This document shows positions 25,555 through 34,588 of a DNA stretch of 64,000 nt, one piece after another (the first letter of the stretch is position 1; each line of letters starts with the position of its first letter). Source of the DNA: Limnochorda sp. L945t (GTDB lineage: Bacteria; Bacillota; Limnochordia; Limnochordales; Geochordaceae). Made by a program: the position numbers and the translations under genes. The DNA lies in NCBI RefSeq assembly GCF_035593305.1, contig NZ_CP141615.1, positions 248,001 to 312,000 on the forward strand, written 5' to 3'. The notes below the pieces were generated by a model. That model was given only the letters and a program-made list of their open reading frames with translations. It had not been told where the DNA came from and did not search any database.

Positions 25555-26697
25555 ATGGAGACGGACCGGCTCGTGGCAGTCATCATGGCGGGCGGCCGGG
25601 GGGAGCGCTTCTGGCCTTTGTCCCGGCGCGCACGGCCCAAGCAGCTCCTCAATCTCGACGGCTCGCGCAGCCTCATCCAGCAGGCGGTGGAGCGGGTACT
25701 GCCCTTGACCGGCCCCGAGAGGGTGCTGGTGGTGACGGGCCGGGAGTATGCCGATTCCATCCGCGAGCAGCTTCCCGAGTTGCCGGCCTCGAGCATCCTG
25801 GTGGAGCCGGCCGGCAAGAACACGGCGGCGTGCATCGGGCTGGCGGCGGTCCACTTGAGCCGGGTGCCGGGCCCGTGGGGGCCCGATCCCATCATGCTGG
25901 TCCTGCCGGCCGACCATGTCGTCCGGGACGGGGAGGCATTCCGGCGCGTCGTCCGCGCGGCCGCCGCGGCGGCTCTCCGGCATCCCCTGGTGACCCTGGG
26001 CATCTGGCCCACCCGCCCGGAGACCGGGTACGGGTACATCGAGCTCGGAGAGCGCGCCGCCGTCGCGCAGGGGTACGACGTGTACCGGGTCCAGCGCTTC
26101 GTGGAAAAGCCGGACCGGGTGCTGGCCCGGCGCTACGTGACCGACGGGCGCCACCTGTGGAACAGCGGGATGTTCGTCTGGCGGACCGGCGCCATCCGGG
26201 AAGCGATCGCCACCTACATGCCGGCGCTGCACGAGGGGCTGGAACGCATCGCGGCCGCCTGGGGCGGGCCGGACCACGCACGGACGGCCGCCGACGTGTA
26301 CGCGAGGCTCGACTCCGTGTCGATCGATTACGGGGTGCTGGAGCGGGCCAGAGAGATCGCGGTGATTCCGGCAGACTTTGGATGGGACGACGCCGGCAGC
26401 TGGCCTGCACTCGAGAGGCTCTTCTCTCCTGACGAAGACGGCAACGTCGTACAGGGCGGCCACCACGTGGGGATCGACACCAGCCAGTGCATCGTATTCG
26501 TCAACGGCGAGCCTTCCAGGTCGACCGACCCGGCCAGGACGGGGCGGCGCCCAAGACTGGTAGCGACTCTCGGCGTGCGCGACCTGGTCATCGTGGAGAC
26601 TGAAGACGTGACGCTGGTATGTGCCAAGGACCGCGCACAGGATATCAAGCACCTCCTGGCGGCCCTGCGAGCGGGAGAGCAGGAGGCCTACCTCTGA
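25555..26697 (+). CDS. manC: Mannose-1-phosphate guanylyltransferase
   Basis: This 380-residue nucleotidyltransferase makes GDP-mannose from mannose-1-P and GTP. The pyrophosphorylase signature is IMAGGRGERFWPLSRRARPKQ near the N-terminus. Other segments are VEPAGKNTAACIGLA (sugar/base loop), LPADHVV, GYGYIE, FVEKPD, WNSGMFVW and DFGWDDAGSW. The C-terminal isomerase cupin of bifunctional AlgA/ManC is absent, so this is the single-function form. It starts the collinear glycan cluster with a phosphohexomutase and two glycosyltransferases, which fits supply of an activated mannose donor. Confidence 0.93.
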   Translation: METDRLVAVIMAGGRGERFWPLSRRARPKQLLNLDGSRSLIQQAVERVLPLTGPERVLVVTGREYADSIREQLPELPASSILVEPAGKNTAACIGLAAVHLSRVPGPWGPDPIMLVLPADHVVRDGEAFRRVVRAAAAAALRHPLVTLGIWPTRPETGYGYIELGERAAVAQGYDVYRVQRFVEKPDRVLARRYVTDGRHLWNSGMFVWRTGAIREAIATYMPALHEGLERIAAAWGGPDHARTAADVYARLDSVSIDYGVLERAREIAVIPADFGWDDAGSWPALERLFSPDEDGNVVQGGHHVGIDTSQCIVFVNGEPSRSTDPARTGRRPRLVATLGVRDLVIVETEDVTLVCAKDRAQDIKHLLAALRAGEQEAYL

Positions 26698-26733: not shown

Positions 26734-26762
26734 TTGAGTCCCGATACCCGTCATGGCACAAT
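26734..26762 (+). promoter_or_regulatory. Predicted promoter upstream of the phosphohexomutase
   Basis: TTGAGT (26734-26739), a 17-nt spacer and CACAAT (26757-26762) form a plausible sigma-A promoter. This would allow the mutase and downstream glycan genes to be transcribed apart from manC. Confidence 0.5.
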
Positions 26763-26796
26763 AATGGGTGCGCCGTGGAAGGGCATCCTGGGTACC

Positions 26797-26814
26797 TATA
26801 CCCGGCTGGGTATA
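26797..26814 (+). repeat. Short inverted repeat in the mutase leader
   Basis: TATACCC and GGGTATA form a 7-bp stem with a GGCT loop inside the untranslated stretch before the mutase gene. It could be an RNA hairpin or a protein-binding palindrome. Confidence 0.4.
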
Positions 26815-26898
26815 CCCGCGAGTCCACCTGGCATGGTGCTGCTTGCGGAGGCGTATGTCTTGTCCGTGCCGGTTTGGGGGGGCATCGTGGGCACAGCC

Positions 26899-28407
<1,509 letters not shown>

Positions 28408-28413
28408 AACGTC

Positions 28414-29790
28414 TTGAACTCGGATCACGTACTGGGAATGGAACGGCGGCACCGGGGGCGCATGCAGCGGCCCACCCCCCAGGGCGGCCTGCGGAGGTGG
28501 GGCCACGGCCGGATGCTCAGCGTGGCGTTCGTGAGTTCGTTTCCGCCGCGCAGGTGCGGCATCGCCTCCTTCACGGCCGACCTCGCCCAGGCCGTTCGCC
28601 AGGCGTACCCGTACATCCGGCTCGGGGCCCTGGCGCTCGACCCCGCGTGGGAGGCGCTCGACCGCAAGCCGCCCTACCCAGGCGGGGTGGACGAAGTGCA
28701 CCCGATCGTGGTCGAAGACCTGGACTCCTACCTGCGAGCCGCCCAATTCCTGGAAACCGGCGGGTGGGACGTCATCAACCTCCAGCACGAGTACGGGCTG
28801 TTCGGGGGGGACCAGGGAGAATACGTCCTCCATCTCCTGCGCCATACCCGGTTGCCCGTGGTCGCCACCCTGCACACCGTCTTGCGACGGCCCGACGAGA
28901 AGCAACGGCAGATCCTGGTGGAGCTGGCGGCGCGATCCCGGGTGGTGGTCGTACAGGCCCGTTCGGCGGTCGAGATCCTGCAGCGCCTGTACGGGATCGA
29001 CGCCGGCCGGGTCGTGGTGATCCCCCACGGCACCCCGGCGTTTCCTTCGATCGATCCCGGTGAGGCCAAGCGGCGCCTCGGCTTCCAGGGACGGCCCGTG
29101 TTGCTGACGTACGGGCTGTTGAGCCCGGGCAAGGGGATCGAGCAGGCGATCCGGGCGTTGCCGGCCATCAAGGAGCGGGTCCCGTCGGTGCTGTACGTGG
29201 TGGCGGGACAAACCCACCCCAACGTCCTGAAGCTGTCGGGGGAGAGCTACCGGCAGTCGCTCGTGCAGATGGCGGCCGAGCTCGGGGTGCAGGACAACGT
29301 GCAGTTCGTCGACCGCTACCTGGGCCTGGAGGAGTTGGGCACGCTGCTTGCGGCCACCGACGTCTACGTGGTGCCGTATCCCAACGAGGATCAGGTCGTG
29401 AGCGGCACGCTCAGCTACGCGCTCGCCGCCGGCAAGGCGGTCGTCTCCACGCCGTTCAGGTACGCCCGGGAGGTGGTGGGGCCCGGCCGGGGCCTGTTGT
29501 GCCAGTTCGGAGACCCGGGCTCCCTGGCCAGAGAGGTGCTGCGGCTGCTGGACAATCCCGAGCTGCGCCGGACCCTGGAGCACCGTGCTCTCGCCTTCGG
29601 GCAATCCATGAGCTGGGATATCGTGGGTTCGCGCTACGGGCGCCTGTTCCGGTGGGTGGCCGACAACCCGCCGCAGGCGGTGGAGCCGCTGGAGCAACCC
29701 GCCTCCATCGCCGCGTCGACCTTGCCGGCCCGGCGTTCGGCAGGGTTGCTCGGAGCGAACCCGTGGCGAGAAGCTCAGCCTGGGAGGTAG
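28414..29790 (+). CDS. Glycosyltransferase family 4 protein
   Basis: This 458-residue GT-B fold glycosyltransferase begins at TTG with GAAGGTGAA upstream. The N-terminal domain has VAFVSSFPPRRCGIASFTADL, VINLQHEYGLFGGDQGEY and VVATLHTVLRRPD. The donor domain has VVVIPHGTP, LTYGLLSPGKGIEQAIRAL, YLGLEELGTLLAATDVYVVPY and SGTLSYALAAGKAVVSTPF, in place of the usual EPFGL...EA loop. The family transfers sugars from nucleotide or phosphosugar donors with retention. The close link to manC and a mutase suggests a GDP-mannose-using mannosyltransferase, but the acceptor is unknown. The next gene begins 4 nt downstream. Confidence 0.88.
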   Translation: MNSDHVLGMERRHRGRMQRPTPQGGLRRWGHGRMLSVAFVSSFPPRRCGIASFTADLAQAVRQAYPYIRLGALALDPAWEALDRKPPYPGGVDEVHPIVVEDLDSYLRAAQFLETGGWDVINLQHEYGLFGGDQGEYVLHLLRHTRLPVVATLHTVLRRPDEKQRQILVELAARSRVVVVQARSAVEILQRLYGIDAGRVVVIPHGTPAFPSIDPGEAKRRLGFQGRPVLLTYGLLSPGKGIEQAIRALPAIKERVPSVLYVVAGQTHPNVLKLSGESYRQSLVQMAAELGVQDNVQFVDRYLGLEELGTLLAATDVYVVPYPNEDQVVSGTLSYALAAGKAVVSTPFRYAREVVGPGRGLLCQFGDPGSLAREVLRLLDNPELRRTLEHRALAFGQSMSWDIVGSRYGRLFRWVADNPPQAVEPLEQPASIAASTLPARRSAGLLGANPWREAQPGR

Positions 29791-29794
29791 ATCG

Positions 29795-30895
29795 ATGCGC
29801 TCGGTCCGGTGGCCTGAGTGGAAGCTGGCGCACCTGCGGCGGCTCACCGACAGCACGGGCATCGCCGAGCACGCGGTGGGGGCCGTGCCCAACGCCGCAG
29901 AGGGATATACGCTGGACGACAACGCCCGGGCGCTGGTGGTGGTGCTGCGCTACTACCATCAGACCCGGGATCCGGAAGCGATGGAACTGGCCATCCGCTA
30001 CCTGAGGTTCGTGCTCTACTGCCAGATGGAGGACGGTTGGTTCCACAACGACGTCGGCTACGACCGGCGGTTCCTCGACGAACGAGGCCCGGAGGACCCC
30101 GTAGGCCGGGCGATCTGGGCCCTGGGGGAGGCCGTTTCGCTCGCGGAGGTGGACGGGGTGTGGACCGCGGCGCTGCGCACCCTCGATCGAACCCTCCCGT
30201 GGGCCGAACGGTTCTCGGGGCTGCGGCCGGTGGCCTTCGCCCTGCTGGGCCTGCGGGCGTTGCTCAAGGCGCCTCCCGAGAGGCTCGGCCGGGAGCGGGC
30301 GTCGGCCGCCCGGAGGCTGACCGCAGCCCTGGGCGAGCGGCTGGTCCAGGCCTACCGCCGGGCGCGCGCTCCGGGGTGGGCCTGGTTCGAGGAGCGGCTG
30401 ACCTACTCCAACGCCCGCCTTCCGCAAGCACTCGTCGCCGCCTGGGAAGTGACGGGCCGGCGAGCTTTCCTGCAGAGCGCCACCGACACCCTCGAGTTCC
30501 TGTGGAACCACCAGTGGAGCGGCCGGTACGTCCAGATCGTGGGCAATCGGGGCTGGTCCGAACGCGGCGGGCAACGGGCGCTGTTCGATCAGCAGCCCGT
30601 CGACGCCGGGGCCCTGGCGGAGGCGGCCAGCTCCTTTTATGAGGCGACCGGGCGAGACGTCTACCTGGAACGGGCCGTGCTCGCCCTGGAGTGGTTCTAC
30701 GGGCGCAACGTCCATGGCGTCGTGATGCACGACGAGGCAACCGGAGGCTGCCGGGACGGTTTGGGCGCCGATGGGCCCAACCTCAACGAGGGAGCCGAGT
30801 CGACGCTCGCCCACCTGCTTGCCCGCATGGCCGTCGAAGAGGGGCTGCGCCTGTCCCAGAGCGGCGGGGTCAACAGGTCCTCGGCCCTTGCCTGA
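29795..30895 (+). CDS. Conserved alpha/alpha-toroid-like protein paired with GT4 (function unknown)
   Basis: This 366-residue protein has repeated helix-hairpin stretches and conserved aromatic motifs, including EWKLAHLRRLTDSTGIAEHA, EGYTLDDNARALVVVLRYY, WFHNDVGYDRRFLDERGPEDP and WFEERLTYSNARLPQAL. This looks like the barrel of helical hairpins found in glycosidases and epimerases. The Asp-rich segments could be carbohydrate-binding or catalytic. I recall similar proteins next to GT4 transferases without an assigned activity. It starts 4 nt after the GT4 stop with GGGAGGT upstream, so it is cotranslated. A glycan trimming or modification role is inference from context. Confidence 0.72.
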   Translation: MRSVRWPEWKLAHLRRLTDSTGIAEHAVGAVPNAAEGYTLDDNARALVVVLRYYHQTRDPEAMELAIRYLRFVLYCQMEDGWFHNDVGYDRRFLDERGPEDPVGRAIWALGEAVSLAEVDGVWTAALRTLDRTLPWAERFSGLRPVAFALLGLRALLKAPPERLGRERASAARRLTAALGERLVQAYRRARAPGWAWFEERLTYSNARLPQALVAAWEVTGRRAFLQSATDTLEFLWNHQWSGRYVQIVGNRGWSERGGQRALFDQQPVDAGALAEAASSFYEATGRDVYLERAVLALEWFYGRNVHGVVMHDEATGGCRDGLGADGPNLNEGAESTLAHLLARMAVEEGLRLSQSGGVNRSSALA

Positions 30896-31026: not shown

Positions 31027-32187
31027 GTGATGCGGGAGGCCTCGGGGGGCATGATCACCCATATGGCGGCCCTCGCCGGCGAGCTCTTGCCCGCCGGCCA
31101 CCGCCTGGCCGTGGCGGCGCCGCCGGACGTGCTGCAGCGGCTGTACGGCCGGCTCGACCCGGGGGGATCAGGGGCCCGTCCGGGCGAGCGGGTGGTGCTC
31201 CTTTTCCCCCTGCCGGTCCGGGATGGGGTAGGCGCCCTCGAGGACGTGGCGTCGGCCGTGCGCCTCGCCCGGTTGGTGCGGCAGCTCCGGCCCTGCGTCG
31301 TGCACTTGCACGGCTACAAGGCCACCGTCGTGGGAGCCCTGGCTGCCGGGCTGTGCGCGCGCAGCTTGCGCTGCGGAGGGAAGCCCCCGCTGTGGGTGTC
31401 GACGCTGCACAACGCGTTGCCGGCCCGACGGGCGGCCATCCTGCGGTGGGCGGACCACGAGGCCGGCAGGTGGGCACTGCGGTGCATGGACCGCGTCATC
31501 GCCGTCTCGGACCAGGTTGCCAGGATGTGGGAGCCCGACCTCGGGGAGCAAAGCCCGGAACGTCTGCGCGTCATCCCGAACGGGCTTCCGGACCGGTGGT
31601 TCGACGCCGCGCCAGGATGGGCGCCGCCCGAGGCGGGCCGACCGTGGGTGTTCGGTTGCCTTGCCCGCCTGATCCCTTCCAAGCGTGTGCACGTGGCTAT
31701 CCTGGCTGCGGCGGAGCTGGAGAGCTCCGGCCGGCAGGTGCGGCTTCTCGTCGGAGGGGACGGGCCGCTCCGGCACGAGCTCGAGGCCCTCGTCCGGCGG
31801 CTCGGGGCAGGGCGGGCGGTCCGGCTGCTCGGACCGGTGGACGACCCGCGCCGGTTCTGGGCCGGGGTCCATGCAGCGGTATTCCCGTCGGCGTTCGAGG
31901 GTTTCGGGTACGCGCTGCTGGAGGCGATGGCCTCCCGCCGCCCCGTGATCGCCTCCGCCGGGGCCAACCTGGAGCCCCTGCTTTCGGCCGGCGGCGGGCT
32001 CCTGGTGCCCGGGGGCGATCCGGTCGAGCTGGCCTCTGCCATGCGCCGGCTCATGGACGATCCGGCCCGGACCGGTGAGATGGCCAGGCGGGCGAGGGAG
32101 ACGGCGGGGCGCTTCAGGGCTCCGGCCATGGCTCGAGCGATCCTGGAGCTTTACCGGGCCGGCCGGGAGGCCACCGGGCGTGCGTAG
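31027..32187 (+). CDS. Glycosyltransferase family 4 protein (N-terminus unresolved)
   Basis: The GTG at 31027 (ATG at 31030) gives about 386 residues of a GT-B glycosyltransferase. It shows REASGGMITHMAALAGEL, VVHLHGYKATVVGALAAGL, DRVIAVSDQVARMW, LRVIPNGLPDRWF, FGCLARLIPSKRVHVAI, LVGGDGPLRHELEALV and the donor loop VFPSAFEGFGYALLEAMASRRPVIA. The codons just upstream (31006-31026) read ELPVFLH, which completes the usual first beta strand. The frame has a stop at 30910 and no ATG, GTG or TTG between it and 31027. The true start may use CTG, or a frameshift may be present. It overlaps the next gene by 8 nt. Confidence 0.82.
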   Translation: MMREASGGMITHMAALAGELLPAGHRLAVAAPPDVLQRLYGRLDPGGSGARPGERVVLLFPLPVRDGVGALEDVASAVRLARLVRQLRPCVVHLHGYKATVVGALAAGLCARSLRCGGKPPLWVSTLHNALPARRAAILRWADHEAGRWALRCMDRVIAVSDQVARMWEPDLGEQSPERLRVIPNGLPDRWFDAAPGWAPPEAGRPWVFGCLARLIPSKRVHVAILAAAELESSGRQVRLLVGGDGPLRHELEALVRRLGAGRAVRLLGPVDDPRRFWAGVHAAVFPSAFEGFGYALLEAMASRRPVIASAGANLEPLLSAGGGLLVPGGDPVELASAMRRLMDDPARTGEMARRARETAGRFRAPAMARAILELYRAGREATGRA

Positions 32188-34588
32188 GCCGCGCCGCAAA
32201 CCCCAGGCCGCACCCGGACGGGCAGCGGCTCTGTTCGCGCTGGTCTGGGCGGCGCTGGCGATGGTCGCCCCCGCAGGCCGGGCGGCGGCGTCCGAAGCCG
32301 GCGCCGTCGCCACACCGGCTCGCCGGCCCGTGCTGGTGCTCTTCTGGGAGGGGCTCCACTGGCCGTGGCTGGCCTCGCACACCGCCGCCCAGGGGGAAGG
32401 ATCTTCCTTTGCCCGATGGATCGGGTCGAGCTCGATGGCGCTCCTCAACCCCCTGGTCACCAACCCCCGCGACGCCCTGTCCGCGTACGCCACCCTGGCG
32501 AGCGGCGTACGCCAGGAGAGGCTCGCCGGCCCCATCCTGTTCGCCCGGCCGGACGAAGCCTCTCGGGCTACCTACCGGCGACGCATGGGGCCACCGCCTG
32601 CCCTGGGCCCCGACGGCCTGCTGCTCCTCGACGCGCCCCAACTGGCCCGGGCGATGGGCCAGGAGGCGAGCCCGCCCCTGGGGTGGCTGGGGGACCTGAT
32701 GGAGACGGCCGGGTATCGCCGGGTGGTCATGGGAGACGGGCGGTGGGTGGGAGGGCCGGCCGAGGCGGTCGCCTTTGGGCGCTGGCTTCCATGGGGCGAG
32801 GTCCGGCCCCTCGATCTGGCGGCCCTGGTGGCCGTCGACTCCAGGGGCACGGTGCCCCGGGCCATCCGGATCGACGTGCAGGATCCGGAGGCGCCCGGAG
32901 GCGTGCGCACGGACTGGCAAGCCGTCTGGCAGGAGCTCAGGGCCCTGTCCGTGCGAGAAGGAGCTCTCGGGCCTCCGGCGGTCTTCGTGGACAGCGGGGA
33001 TCTCTTACGCCTGGCCCTCGAAGAGCAGGCGATGACGCCGGGTGCCTTCCGGCAGGCGGGCGAAGCGGTCTCGGCGCGCCTCGGGGAGTTCTTGGAACGG
33101 CTCCGCTCGGATCCGTACTGGGCACAGGCAACGATCATCATCACCGCGTTGCTGCCGTTACCGGCCCTTCCGGACCCCGACGGGACCGAACGGCCGGCCT
33201 TGCTCCTCACCCCTCTCCTGGTTCGAAACCTCGAGGGACCCGGCCTGCTCTACAGCTCGAGCACCCGGCTGGACGGCTTTGCCATCGCCCCGGACCTGAC
33301 CGCCACATTGGCCCGGGCCTTCGGCCTGGCCCACCCGCCGGCGCCGGTGGCGGGCCGGCCGCTCGAAACCGCACCCGGGGCGCGACTTCACGCCGGCCAG
33401 GGGCCCGGCAGCGGCTCCATGGTCGAGTGGCTGCGGGATTGGGCCGTCCTGCGCTCCCGCATCTACTGGCTGCGGCCGAGGGTCATGCCGACGCTCATCA
33501 GCCTGCAGGTCCTGGTCCTGCTGGGAGCGCTGGTCGCGGCCTGGTGGCCCTGGCGGCGGGTGGCCTCCCTGATGGCGGATGCGGCGGTGTGGGCGGCTGC
33601 CGTACCGGTGATGCTCCTGCTCCCGGTGGTGGTCCGACCGCCCCCTCTCCTGGCCGGGTCCGGCGACAGCGCATGGGCTCTGGCCATCGCAGGATCCGGG
33701 GCCTTGCTGCTGACCTGGGGGGCTCGGCTGGCCGGGAAGGCCCTCGGCACGGGTGCGGTCGTGATCGTGGCGGTCCTCGCGCTCGCGAGCACGATCGCCG
33801 ACGCAGTGGCCCATCTTGGGCTCATCGGGAGCTCGCTCATGGGCTACGATCTGGTGGCAGGCGCGCGGTTTTACGGCGTCGGCAACGAGCACTCGGGGCT
33901 CATGCTCAGCGCGGCGCTCCTCGTCGGCCTGGAGGCGATGCGGCGCACGGGCCGCGCCTGGGCCGGAGGGCTCGTGATCGCGGCGACGGCGGTGGTGACG
34001 GGGTGGCCCGGGTGGGGCTCCGACGTCGGAGGCGGGCTCGCCATGACCGTGGCTGCCGTGGTCGCCACGCTGGCCTGGGCGAGGGGGGGCGCGGATCTGC
34101 AGCAGAAGGGGCCCGATCTGCTCGGGCGGGTCCTGTGGGGCGTGGCGGCGGGGATGGCCCTCGTCCTGGCGCTCGGCGGGTGGGACGCGCTGCAGCCCAG
34201 GCCCATGCAGGCGCACTGGGGGCAGGCCCTCGTCGCCTCTCAGGAGGCCGGGCCCGGATACCTCCTGGAGATCGCCCGGCGCAAGCTGGCGCTCAACGTG
34301 CGGCTCATCCGGTACAGCATGTATACGCGGATCATGGTCGTAGCGATGCTGGTGGTGACGGCCGCGTTCTTGCGAGCGCCGAGGCTGTCCGGCCGCATTG
34401 CCGCCCGGGACGGGGCTTACGTGGCGATGCTCCAGGCGGCCGGGGCAGGGGCGCTGGTGGCGCTCGTGGCCAACGACTCGGGGGTGACGGCCGCGGCCAC
34501 CGCGCTGTTGCTGCCTGCTGCGTCGCTGTTGGAGGAGAGCCTGGACCGCCGGGCGAGCGAGGCCGTCGCAGCCGGCGGAGGGGATTGA
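32180..34588 (+). CDS. Large membrane protein with alkaline-phosphatase-like ectodomain
   Basis: The GTG at 32180 has GGGAGG 9 nt upstream and gives 802 residues. The first helix (ALFALVWAALAMVAPAG) is followed by an outside domain of about 390 residues. It starts with PVLVLFWEGLHWPWLA and contains VDSGDLLRLALEE and YWAQATIIITALLP, which resemble AlkP-superfamily strands, although the usual leading Asp is Glu. The C-terminal half has about nine to ten membrane helices and the conserved SSLMGYDLVAGARFYGVGNEHSGLMLSAALL. Proteins of this layout occur in Bacillota without a known function. Its place at the end of the glycan cluster suggests transfer or removal of a phospho-group on a lipid-linked glycan. 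Confidence 0.7.
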   Translation: MRRPRRKPQAAPGRAAALFALVWAALAMVAPAGRAAASEAGAVATPARRPVLVLFWEGLHWPWLASHTAAQGEGSSFARWIGSSSMALLNPLVTNPRDALSAYATLASGVRQERLAGPILFARPDEASRATYRRRMGPPPALGPDGLLLLDAPQLARAMGQEASPPLGWLGDLMETAGYRRVVMGDGRWVGGPAEAVAFGRWLPWGEVRPLDLAALVAVDSRGTVPRAIRIDVQDPEAPGGVRTDWQAVWQELRALSVREGALGPPAVFVDSGDLLRLALEEQAMTPGAFRQAGEAVSARLGEFLERLRSDPYWAQATIIITALLPLPALPDPDGTERPALLLTPLLVRNLEGPGLLYSSSTRLDGFAIAPDLTATLARAFGLAHPPAPVAGRPLETAPGARLHAGQGPGSGSMVEWLRDWAVLRSRIYWLRPRVMPTLISLQVLVLLGALVAAWWPWRRVASLMADAAVWAAAVPVMLLLPVVVRPPPLLAGSGDSAWALAIAGSGALLLTWGARLAGKALGTGAVVIVAVLALASTIADAVAHLGLIGSSLMGYDLVAGARFYGVGNEHSGLMLSAALLVGLEAMRRTGRAWAGGLVIAATAVVTGWPGWGSDVGGGLAMTVAAVVATLAWARGGADLQQKGPDLLGRVLWGVAAGMALVLALGGWDALQPRPMQAHWGQALVASQEAGPGYLLEIARRKLALNVRLIRYSMYTRIMVVAMLVVTAAFLRAPRLSGRIAARDGAYVAMLQAAGAGALVALVANDSGVTAAATALLLPAASLLEESLDRRASEAVAAGGGD

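Follow-up and report, generated by a model that had tools for sequence, protein, structure and literature searches.

The window, a 64,000-nucleotide stretch of the Limnochorda sp. L945t genome, encodes a predicted (α/α)6 helical barrel (termed the toroid) directly behind a GT4-like glycosyltransferase gene. We regard this toroid as an uncharacterised carbohydrate-active domain that works with the upstream transferase and most likely carries out glycoside-hydrolase-type chemistry, a prediction to which we give even chances. The toroid frame starts 4 nt after the transferase gene, whose TAG stop codon ends at 29790; the frame (29795-30895, + strand, ATG start, 366 residues) is present just as an earlier sequence-only reading of this DNA had placed it. 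The transferase and toroid frames, opening at 28414 and 29795, lie in different reading frames, and thus the two are separate genes rather than a read-through fusion. The source genome, a single contig of 3.31 Mb, holds one copy of the toroid.

The features of the locus are collected in the table. The ManC-type product reaches 299 bits against the NCBIfam model GMP_PMI, under its cut-off of 373. Translation of the mutase gene may begin further downstream than its listed TTG, as its Pfam match begins at residue 62, and comparison with homologues suggests the ATG at 28513 as the start of the partner GT4 gene. Further downstream, an 837-aa frame (32075-34588, + strand), judged by eye to abound in hydrophobic stretches, found no match in Pfam or NCBIfam at E up to 1; a relative with 34-38% identity likewise lies 3′ of the second GT4 gene in both same-family genomes (L101 and L102).

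Table. Features of the toroid locus (window coordinates)
Feature	Position	Strand	Basis
Mannose-1-phosphate guanylyltransferase, ManC-type, would supply GDP-mannose	25555..26697	+	Pfam NTP_transferase 5.7e-41, ManC_GMP_beta-helix 3.7e-17
Phosphomannomutase/phosphoglucomutase-type enzyme	26734..28407	+	Pfam PGM_PMM domains I-IV
GT4-like glycosyltransferase, toroid partner	28414..29790	+	Pfam Glycos_transf_1 1.8e-22
Q-X7-Y (QVVSGTLSY) in place of the EX7E of retaining GT-B enzymes	29392..29418	+	Alignment with two canonical GT4 enzymes
Shine-Dalgarno-like GGGAGG ahead of the toroid gene, abutting the GT4 stop codon	29782..29787	+	Read directly
Toroid protein, (α/α)6, 366 aa	29795..30895	+	ATG open reading frame; AlphaFold2 model; 7tem Z 39.1
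Codons of the candidate catalytic Asp residues D41-D42, first inner helix, N-terminal end	29915..29920	+	56 and 57 of 57 GT-linked; 6/6 exported
Codon of the candidate catalytic Glu residue E335, last inner helix, N-terminal end	30797..30799	+	57/57 GT-linked; 6/6 exported
Second GT4, canonical EX7E	31027..32187	+	Pfam; relative also 3′ of the toroid gene in both same-family genomes (L101, L102; 41% identity)

AlphaFold2 prediction from 57 sequences gave an (α/α)6 barrel with a pLDDT of 95.9 and a pTM of 0.94; the guess of a helical toroid holds to the extent that a predicted model can show it. Structural similarity search revealed that the nearest solved structure is YPO2471 (PDB 7tem), over 335 residues at 2.5 Å and 21% identity. 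Among the fold neighbours AGE-type enzymes are the most numerous, with the cellobiose 2-epimerases at Z scores of 30.3-31.5 over 324-336 aligned residues; the exo-acting GH9 enzymes range from 25.3 to 30.4, GH76 enzymes reach 27.7, and the mannan hydrolase MmpH scores 26.0. The sequence-only reading had proposed a comparison with AGE-type barrels, and these do match; the best match, 7tem, is also without an assigned function. YPO2471 is a sequence homologue as well (E 2.4e-23 with the profile) and shares with the toroid the DD pair and the positions of N85, R105, W197, Y204, N206, N305, D321, N331 and E335. Unlike the GT-linked toroid, it is named as exported (a putative exported protein of unknown function).

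To map conserved residues, we used an alignment (A2) of 57 members, for which, once near-duplicates had been removed, 56 of the 79 usable loci were taken, with L031 omitted for its broken frame. Both motifs picked out in the sequence-only reading are conserved: Y38, D42 and R45 do not vary among the 57 members, D41 is kept in 56, and N85, R91 and D101 are found in 56, 54 and 57 members, respectively. In total, 34 columns of polar or aromatic residues reach a conservation of 80% or more, 24 of which fall in the N-terminal zones of the six inner helices; these zones cover 126 of the 366 positions (hypergeometric p of 7e-6, indicative only, since they were drawn by hand from the secondary structure). 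The conserved aspartates D41/D42 map to the N-terminal end of the first inner helix and are common to the GT-linked members and to distant exported relatives. We infer that catalysis would fall to D41/D42 and E335. Only two histidines, H13 and H26, are conserved in the 57 members, and each belongs to the N-terminal segment; elsewhere histidine occupies at most 19 of 57 rows in any column.

The exported relatives are six distant homologues with frames of 600-826 aa, which were hand-picked because one long frame contained two distinct stretches that matched; genomes with a single marginal match were left out. Read by eye, their starts look like signal peptides, and the regions read contain no such GT4. 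All six keep Y38, D41, D42, R45, N85, R105, W108, W195, W197, Q266, W300, N305, D321, N331 and E335, whereas D101, R144, Y204, N206 and Q267 are conserved in the GT-linked members but not retained in the exported ones, as seen in a joint alignment with the first 30 of the 57 rows of A2. In four of the six regions (L151-L154) the exported relative is part of a sugar-uptake gene cluster that includes GH130; each of these clusters has a Pfam-confirmed LacI regulator, and those of L151, L152 and L154 also have Pfam-confirmed components of an ABC transporter. The fifth region (L155) is a 5-kb piece, and GH130 is absent from the 19 kb read of the sixth (L156). Pfam search of three of the six proteins revealed a CBM9-like domain in L152, a weak GH9 match in L151 and none in the third. 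The exported relatives thus sit where a secreted glycan-degrading enzyme is expected, which is the strongest argument for a catalytic barrel.

The Pfam and NCBIfam profiles assign the window protein to no family. The sequence-only reading knew of no assigned activity and called for a profile search; the window protein stays below all Pfam cut-offs for helical-barrel families, with four Pfam matches in total, every one of them under its cut-off, and no NCBIfam family at E up to 1. The GH9 profile (PF00759) does not match the window protein, and it gives 23.1 bits against a cut-off of 27.7 for the exported relative in L151; in a profile-profile alignment of the toroid with GH9 sequences the probability is 4.9%. 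The Asp/Asp pair and the acid Glu that GH9 has at opposite ends of its barrel sequence may have counterparts in D41/D42 and E335, which lie at similar places in the aligned ranges, an equivalence that is topological only. GH76 (PF03663) is matched by five of the 57 members with E values no higher than 0.01, the lowest being 7.7e-5; the two of these that were inspected gave 17.5-18 bits against a cut-off of 25.9, and the profile-profile probability is 46%. The sets used for profile-profile alignment with AGE, GH9 and GH76 were small, at five, five and three sequences from relatives' genomes, respectively, and provide no usable residue register. At the same E threshold, 25 of the 57 members match GH88, 18 match glucuronyl C5-epimerase and 12 match GH127; in ten members inspected, most of these matches span ~30-130 residues at differing places. 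Two members (L037 and L097) exceed the C5-epimerase cut-off (25.6 and 30.0 against 23.3 bits) over stretches of ~35-60 residues at different places, and one (L098) matches GH127 over 274 residues, but with 22.7 bits against a cut-off of 24.9. Membership in GH88, C5-epimerase or GH127 was rejected, the matches being mostly short cross-matches in inconsistent places, and on the same grounds membership in GH76 was not favoured.

Among the best 80 loci of a scan of genome contigs, the toroid is fused behind a GT4 domain in 65 and encoded by the next gene in 13, while two (L020 and L096) have no partner, the upstream genes looked at there belonging to other families. The pairing with a transferase, which had been called obligate, is therefore nearly so in these closer relatives; it does not extend to the distant exported members. 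The split arrangement of the window is shared by two relatives in its family and two in its order, whereas the fused form occurs in three further relatives from the order and in one from the class. A quick tree of 99 toroids, in which L020 and L096 were scored as split, requires six changes between the fused and split states and groups the window protein with the split members of its family and order. Alignment A3 covers 43 of the 44 listed fusions, L032 being left out. The model of one fused relative (L033) comprises two well-predicted domains of no fixed orientation (pLDDT 91, pTM 0.56); the idea that the two fused domains form one tight, composite active site was considered and is not supported by a model with this pTM.

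The transferase half of the L033 model has a GT-B fold that matches sucrose-phosphate synthase (6kih, Z 36.5), MshA (35.5) and PimA (34.5). By sequence, the solved enzymes closest to the partner GT4 of the window are MshA, PimB′, sucrose-phosphate synthase and PimA. Membership in GT4 is indicated by the Pfam profile for the window gene and by the GT-B fold seen in the L033 model, and the partner otherwise aligns with canonical GT4 enzymes, but the EX7E motif is missing. Among the 98 informative partner transferases of the fetched loci (one further partner being too short), the glutamine is present in all 98 and the tyrosine in 94. In the mycobacterial mannosyltransferase ManT, Glu313 is retained and the first glutamate of EX7E matters for activity, according to the available part of PMC9883506; the Q-X7-Y motif is thus a marked departure, and judged from the motif the activity of the partner transferase is uncertain. 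A second, small GT4 lies within 5 kb of the toroid in 36 of the best 80 loci (L058:4090-5118 on the + strand and like genes). That of L058 resembles glucosylsucrose synthase TeGSS (7fg9, E 2.3e-72), for which the portion of PMC9909042 at hand gives the published context.

The toroid is widespread. Relatives from two genomes of its family are 66-69% identical to it and those from five genomes of its order 42-48%, and 10 of 31 genomes (the source genome and its relatives) have a match. The scan of genome contigs found at least 566 matching stretches in bacteria and archaea; as it used two patterns, one gene may yield two stretches. These relatives and those of the same family and order show that the toroid frame is not a chance one. 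Bacteroidota, Chloroflexota, Armatimonadota, Planctomycetota, Spirochaetota and candidate phyla, among others, contribute to the best 80 loci, whose archaeal sources include Bathyarchaeota, Asgard archaea and Methanosarcina. On a Bathyarchaeota contig (L031:7977-9017), the toroid frame is split into two ORFs 3′ of the GT4 gene. Plasmid records with a match number 27, of which 26 have a single match spanning 80% or more of the query and 19 are annotated as "glycosyltransferase family 4 protein". A viral origin was rejected, the viral structure library giving three matches at E up to 0.001 and none with a TM above 0.6. Among the titles listed by the literature search, none was on a GT4-toroid protein.

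Gene context connects the toroid with GH130, the β-mannoside phosphorylase family. A GH130 gene lies within 5 kb of the toroid in 64 of the best 80 loci; five of the other 16 have full 5-kb flanks and the rest less. In a phylum sample of 199 genomes, 47 of the 48 genomes with a strong toroid match (E below 1e-40) contain GH130, compared to 25 of the 151 others (Fisher 5e-26). When all 62 reported toroid matches are counted, the numbers are 53 of 62 against 19 of 137. The sole strong-match genome lacking GH130 (G048) is 78% complete. Counted from their labels, the 48 genomes span 29 families, and in 31 of them toroid and GH130 lie no more than 10 kb apart. The source genome has one GH130 match, 249 kb from the toroid; its nearest solved chain is Lin0857 (1.2e-99), and against two NCBIfam mannobiose-phosphorylase models it scores 426 bits (cut-off 550) and 210 bits (cut-off 450). 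A relative of ManC is found beside or near the GT4-toroid pair in 10 of the 15 toroid loci from relatives' genomes. As a universal neighbour ManC was rejected: it occurs within 5 kb in only two of the 80 wide loci, and the claim of a mannose donor is therefore limited to the lineage of the window.

Three proteins of ~1,200 aa (L109:4021-7662, − strand; L110:7774-11364, − strand; L112:2971-6678, + strand) carry a C-terminal GH130 after a region of ~890 aa. That region has marginal GT2 matches in L109 (E 0.18) and L112 (E 0.11) and none in L110; in L109 it also matches a GT81-type model at 2.3e-4. The GH130 part of L109 is closest to the β-1,2-mannobiose phosphorylase 7fip. The gene lies beside the GT4 and toroid genes in L109, one gene off in L110 and on another contig in L112.

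Based on ManC, the mutase and GH130, we infer that the substrate is a mannoside. ManC and the mutase would provide GDP-mannose, from which the GT4-like enzyme would build a manno-oligosaccharide or mannan. The toroid, using D41/D42 and E335 at one end of the barrel, might then cut or transfer units of this product, setting its length or releasing primers, and the GH130 phosphorylase would return mannose-1-phosphate. The gene, its predicted fold, its conservation, its pairing with the GT and its association with GH130 are observed; the catalysis by the toroid and the order of these events are proposals. Among the roles offered in the sequence-only reading, trimming fits best with the polar residues at the inner-helix N-termini, with the DD pair and the glutamate that the exported relatives share, and with the GH130 genes in four of six exported clusters and 47 of 48 strong-match genomes; AGE-type epimerisation is not supported, no histidine pair being conserved. 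GT4 enzymes are normally retaining and would give an α-product from GDP-mannose, whereas GH130 acts on β-mannosides. This mismatch leaves two options: GH130 may attack a different portion of the molecule, or the transferase lacking EX7E may be unusual.

A precedent is the mycobacterial methylmannose polysaccharide system, in which a GT4 mannosyltransferase using GDP-mannose (ManT) is accompanied by an (α/α)6 hydrolase (MmpH), as the accessible text of PMC9883506 describes. MmpH (7qsj) and ManT (7qsg) are among the fold matches of the toroid and GT domains, respectively. The same text reports that replacement of Glu262 in MmpH abolished activity, and that replacement of Asp47 or Asp50 cut it drastically. 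The two systems differ in that MmpH and ManT are separate proteins, the identity is 11%, ManT has Glu313 in place of the glutamine found here, and the available portion of that text mentions no GH130. The exo-acting GH9 glucosidase/glucosaminidases VC0615, VP2484 and PBPRA0520 are also (α/α)6 barrels. In VC0615, Asp140 (with Asp144) is the postulated base and Glu546 the acid, according to the part of PMC6096475 that was available; these residues lie towards opposite ends of the aligned range, a placement that D41/D42 and E335 of the toroid share. Compared to the toroid, these enzymes have ~15% identity and no confident profile match, and the window protein has no Pfam GH9 domain. A similar gene set was described in Thermoanaerobacter (Teth514_1785-1789), comprising a hypothetical protein, a GT4, a ManC-type enzyme and two GH130 β-1,2-mannoside phosphorylases. 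Teth514_1785 is left hypothetical in the accessible part of that report (PMC4264767), and its likeness to the toroid locus is one of gene set.

Other functions were weighed against hydrolase-type chemistry. The toroid might be a non-catalytic module, perhaps a former enzyme, that binds the acceptor or product and holds the chain for the transferase. Such a role would account for a pairing that is near-constant and mostly within one polypeptide, and the unfixed tether of the L033 model would suit a binding arm; we nonetheless think it rather unlikely, because acidic and polar residues are kept over long distances, even in the GT-less exported relatives, which are located where an extracellular glycanase is expected. 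An AGE-type epimerase or isomerase acting on the product or acceptor is suggested by the fold list that AGE enzymes dominate (Z up to 31.5), and by a weak profile match with a probability of 79% that is half a barrel out of register. Like the toroid, cellobiose 2-epimerases and other AGE members have a barrel of comparable size, the toroid being the shorter (366 against ~390 aa). However, AGE epimerases act by a two-histidine mechanism, and titles of structure entries name the mutants H247F and H248A, whereas the toroid lacks conserved histidines in its middle and C-terminal helices, keeping only H13 and H26 near the N-terminus. The window protein gives 14.9 bits against the AGE profile (PF07221), under the cut-off of 23.4. 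Despite the fold list, AGE-type epimerisation was rejected as first choice for want of a histidine pair, and we consider it very improbable.

In cyclic β-1,2-glucan synthase, transferase, barrel and phosphorylase modules act on one chain. A transglycosylase or cyclising role of this kind would be in keeping with the recurrent set of a GT, an (α/α)6 barrel and GH130, and with those GH130 domains that follow ~890 aa with marginal GT matches, beside the GT4-toroid pair in L109. Nevertheless, neither a cyclic product nor a linkage was found, nor any direct homology to a domain of this kind, and we hold this role to be quite improbable. Returning to hydrolase-type chemistry, a bolder version, which we advance as speculation that is unlikely to hold in full, is a build-and-trim system for prokaryotic β-mannans that extends across bacteria and archaea. 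Here the EX7E-less GT4-like enzyme would make mannosides, perhaps inverted (β), the fused toroid would edit the chain as the founder of a new family of glycoside hydrolases or transglycosylases, and GH130 would recover mannose-1-phosphate. The mannogen of Leishmania, described as a β-1,2-mannan reserve in the available text of PMC8950772, is a case for comparison.

A domain that occurs in many phyla, including archaea, together with an unusual transferase and mostly with GH130, is nameless in both Pfam and NCBIfam. If catalytic, the toroid would represent a new carbohydrate-active family and hint at a common intracellular mannoside cycle. In the lineage of the window, GT4 and toroid are encoded by separate genes, which makes separate assays easy.
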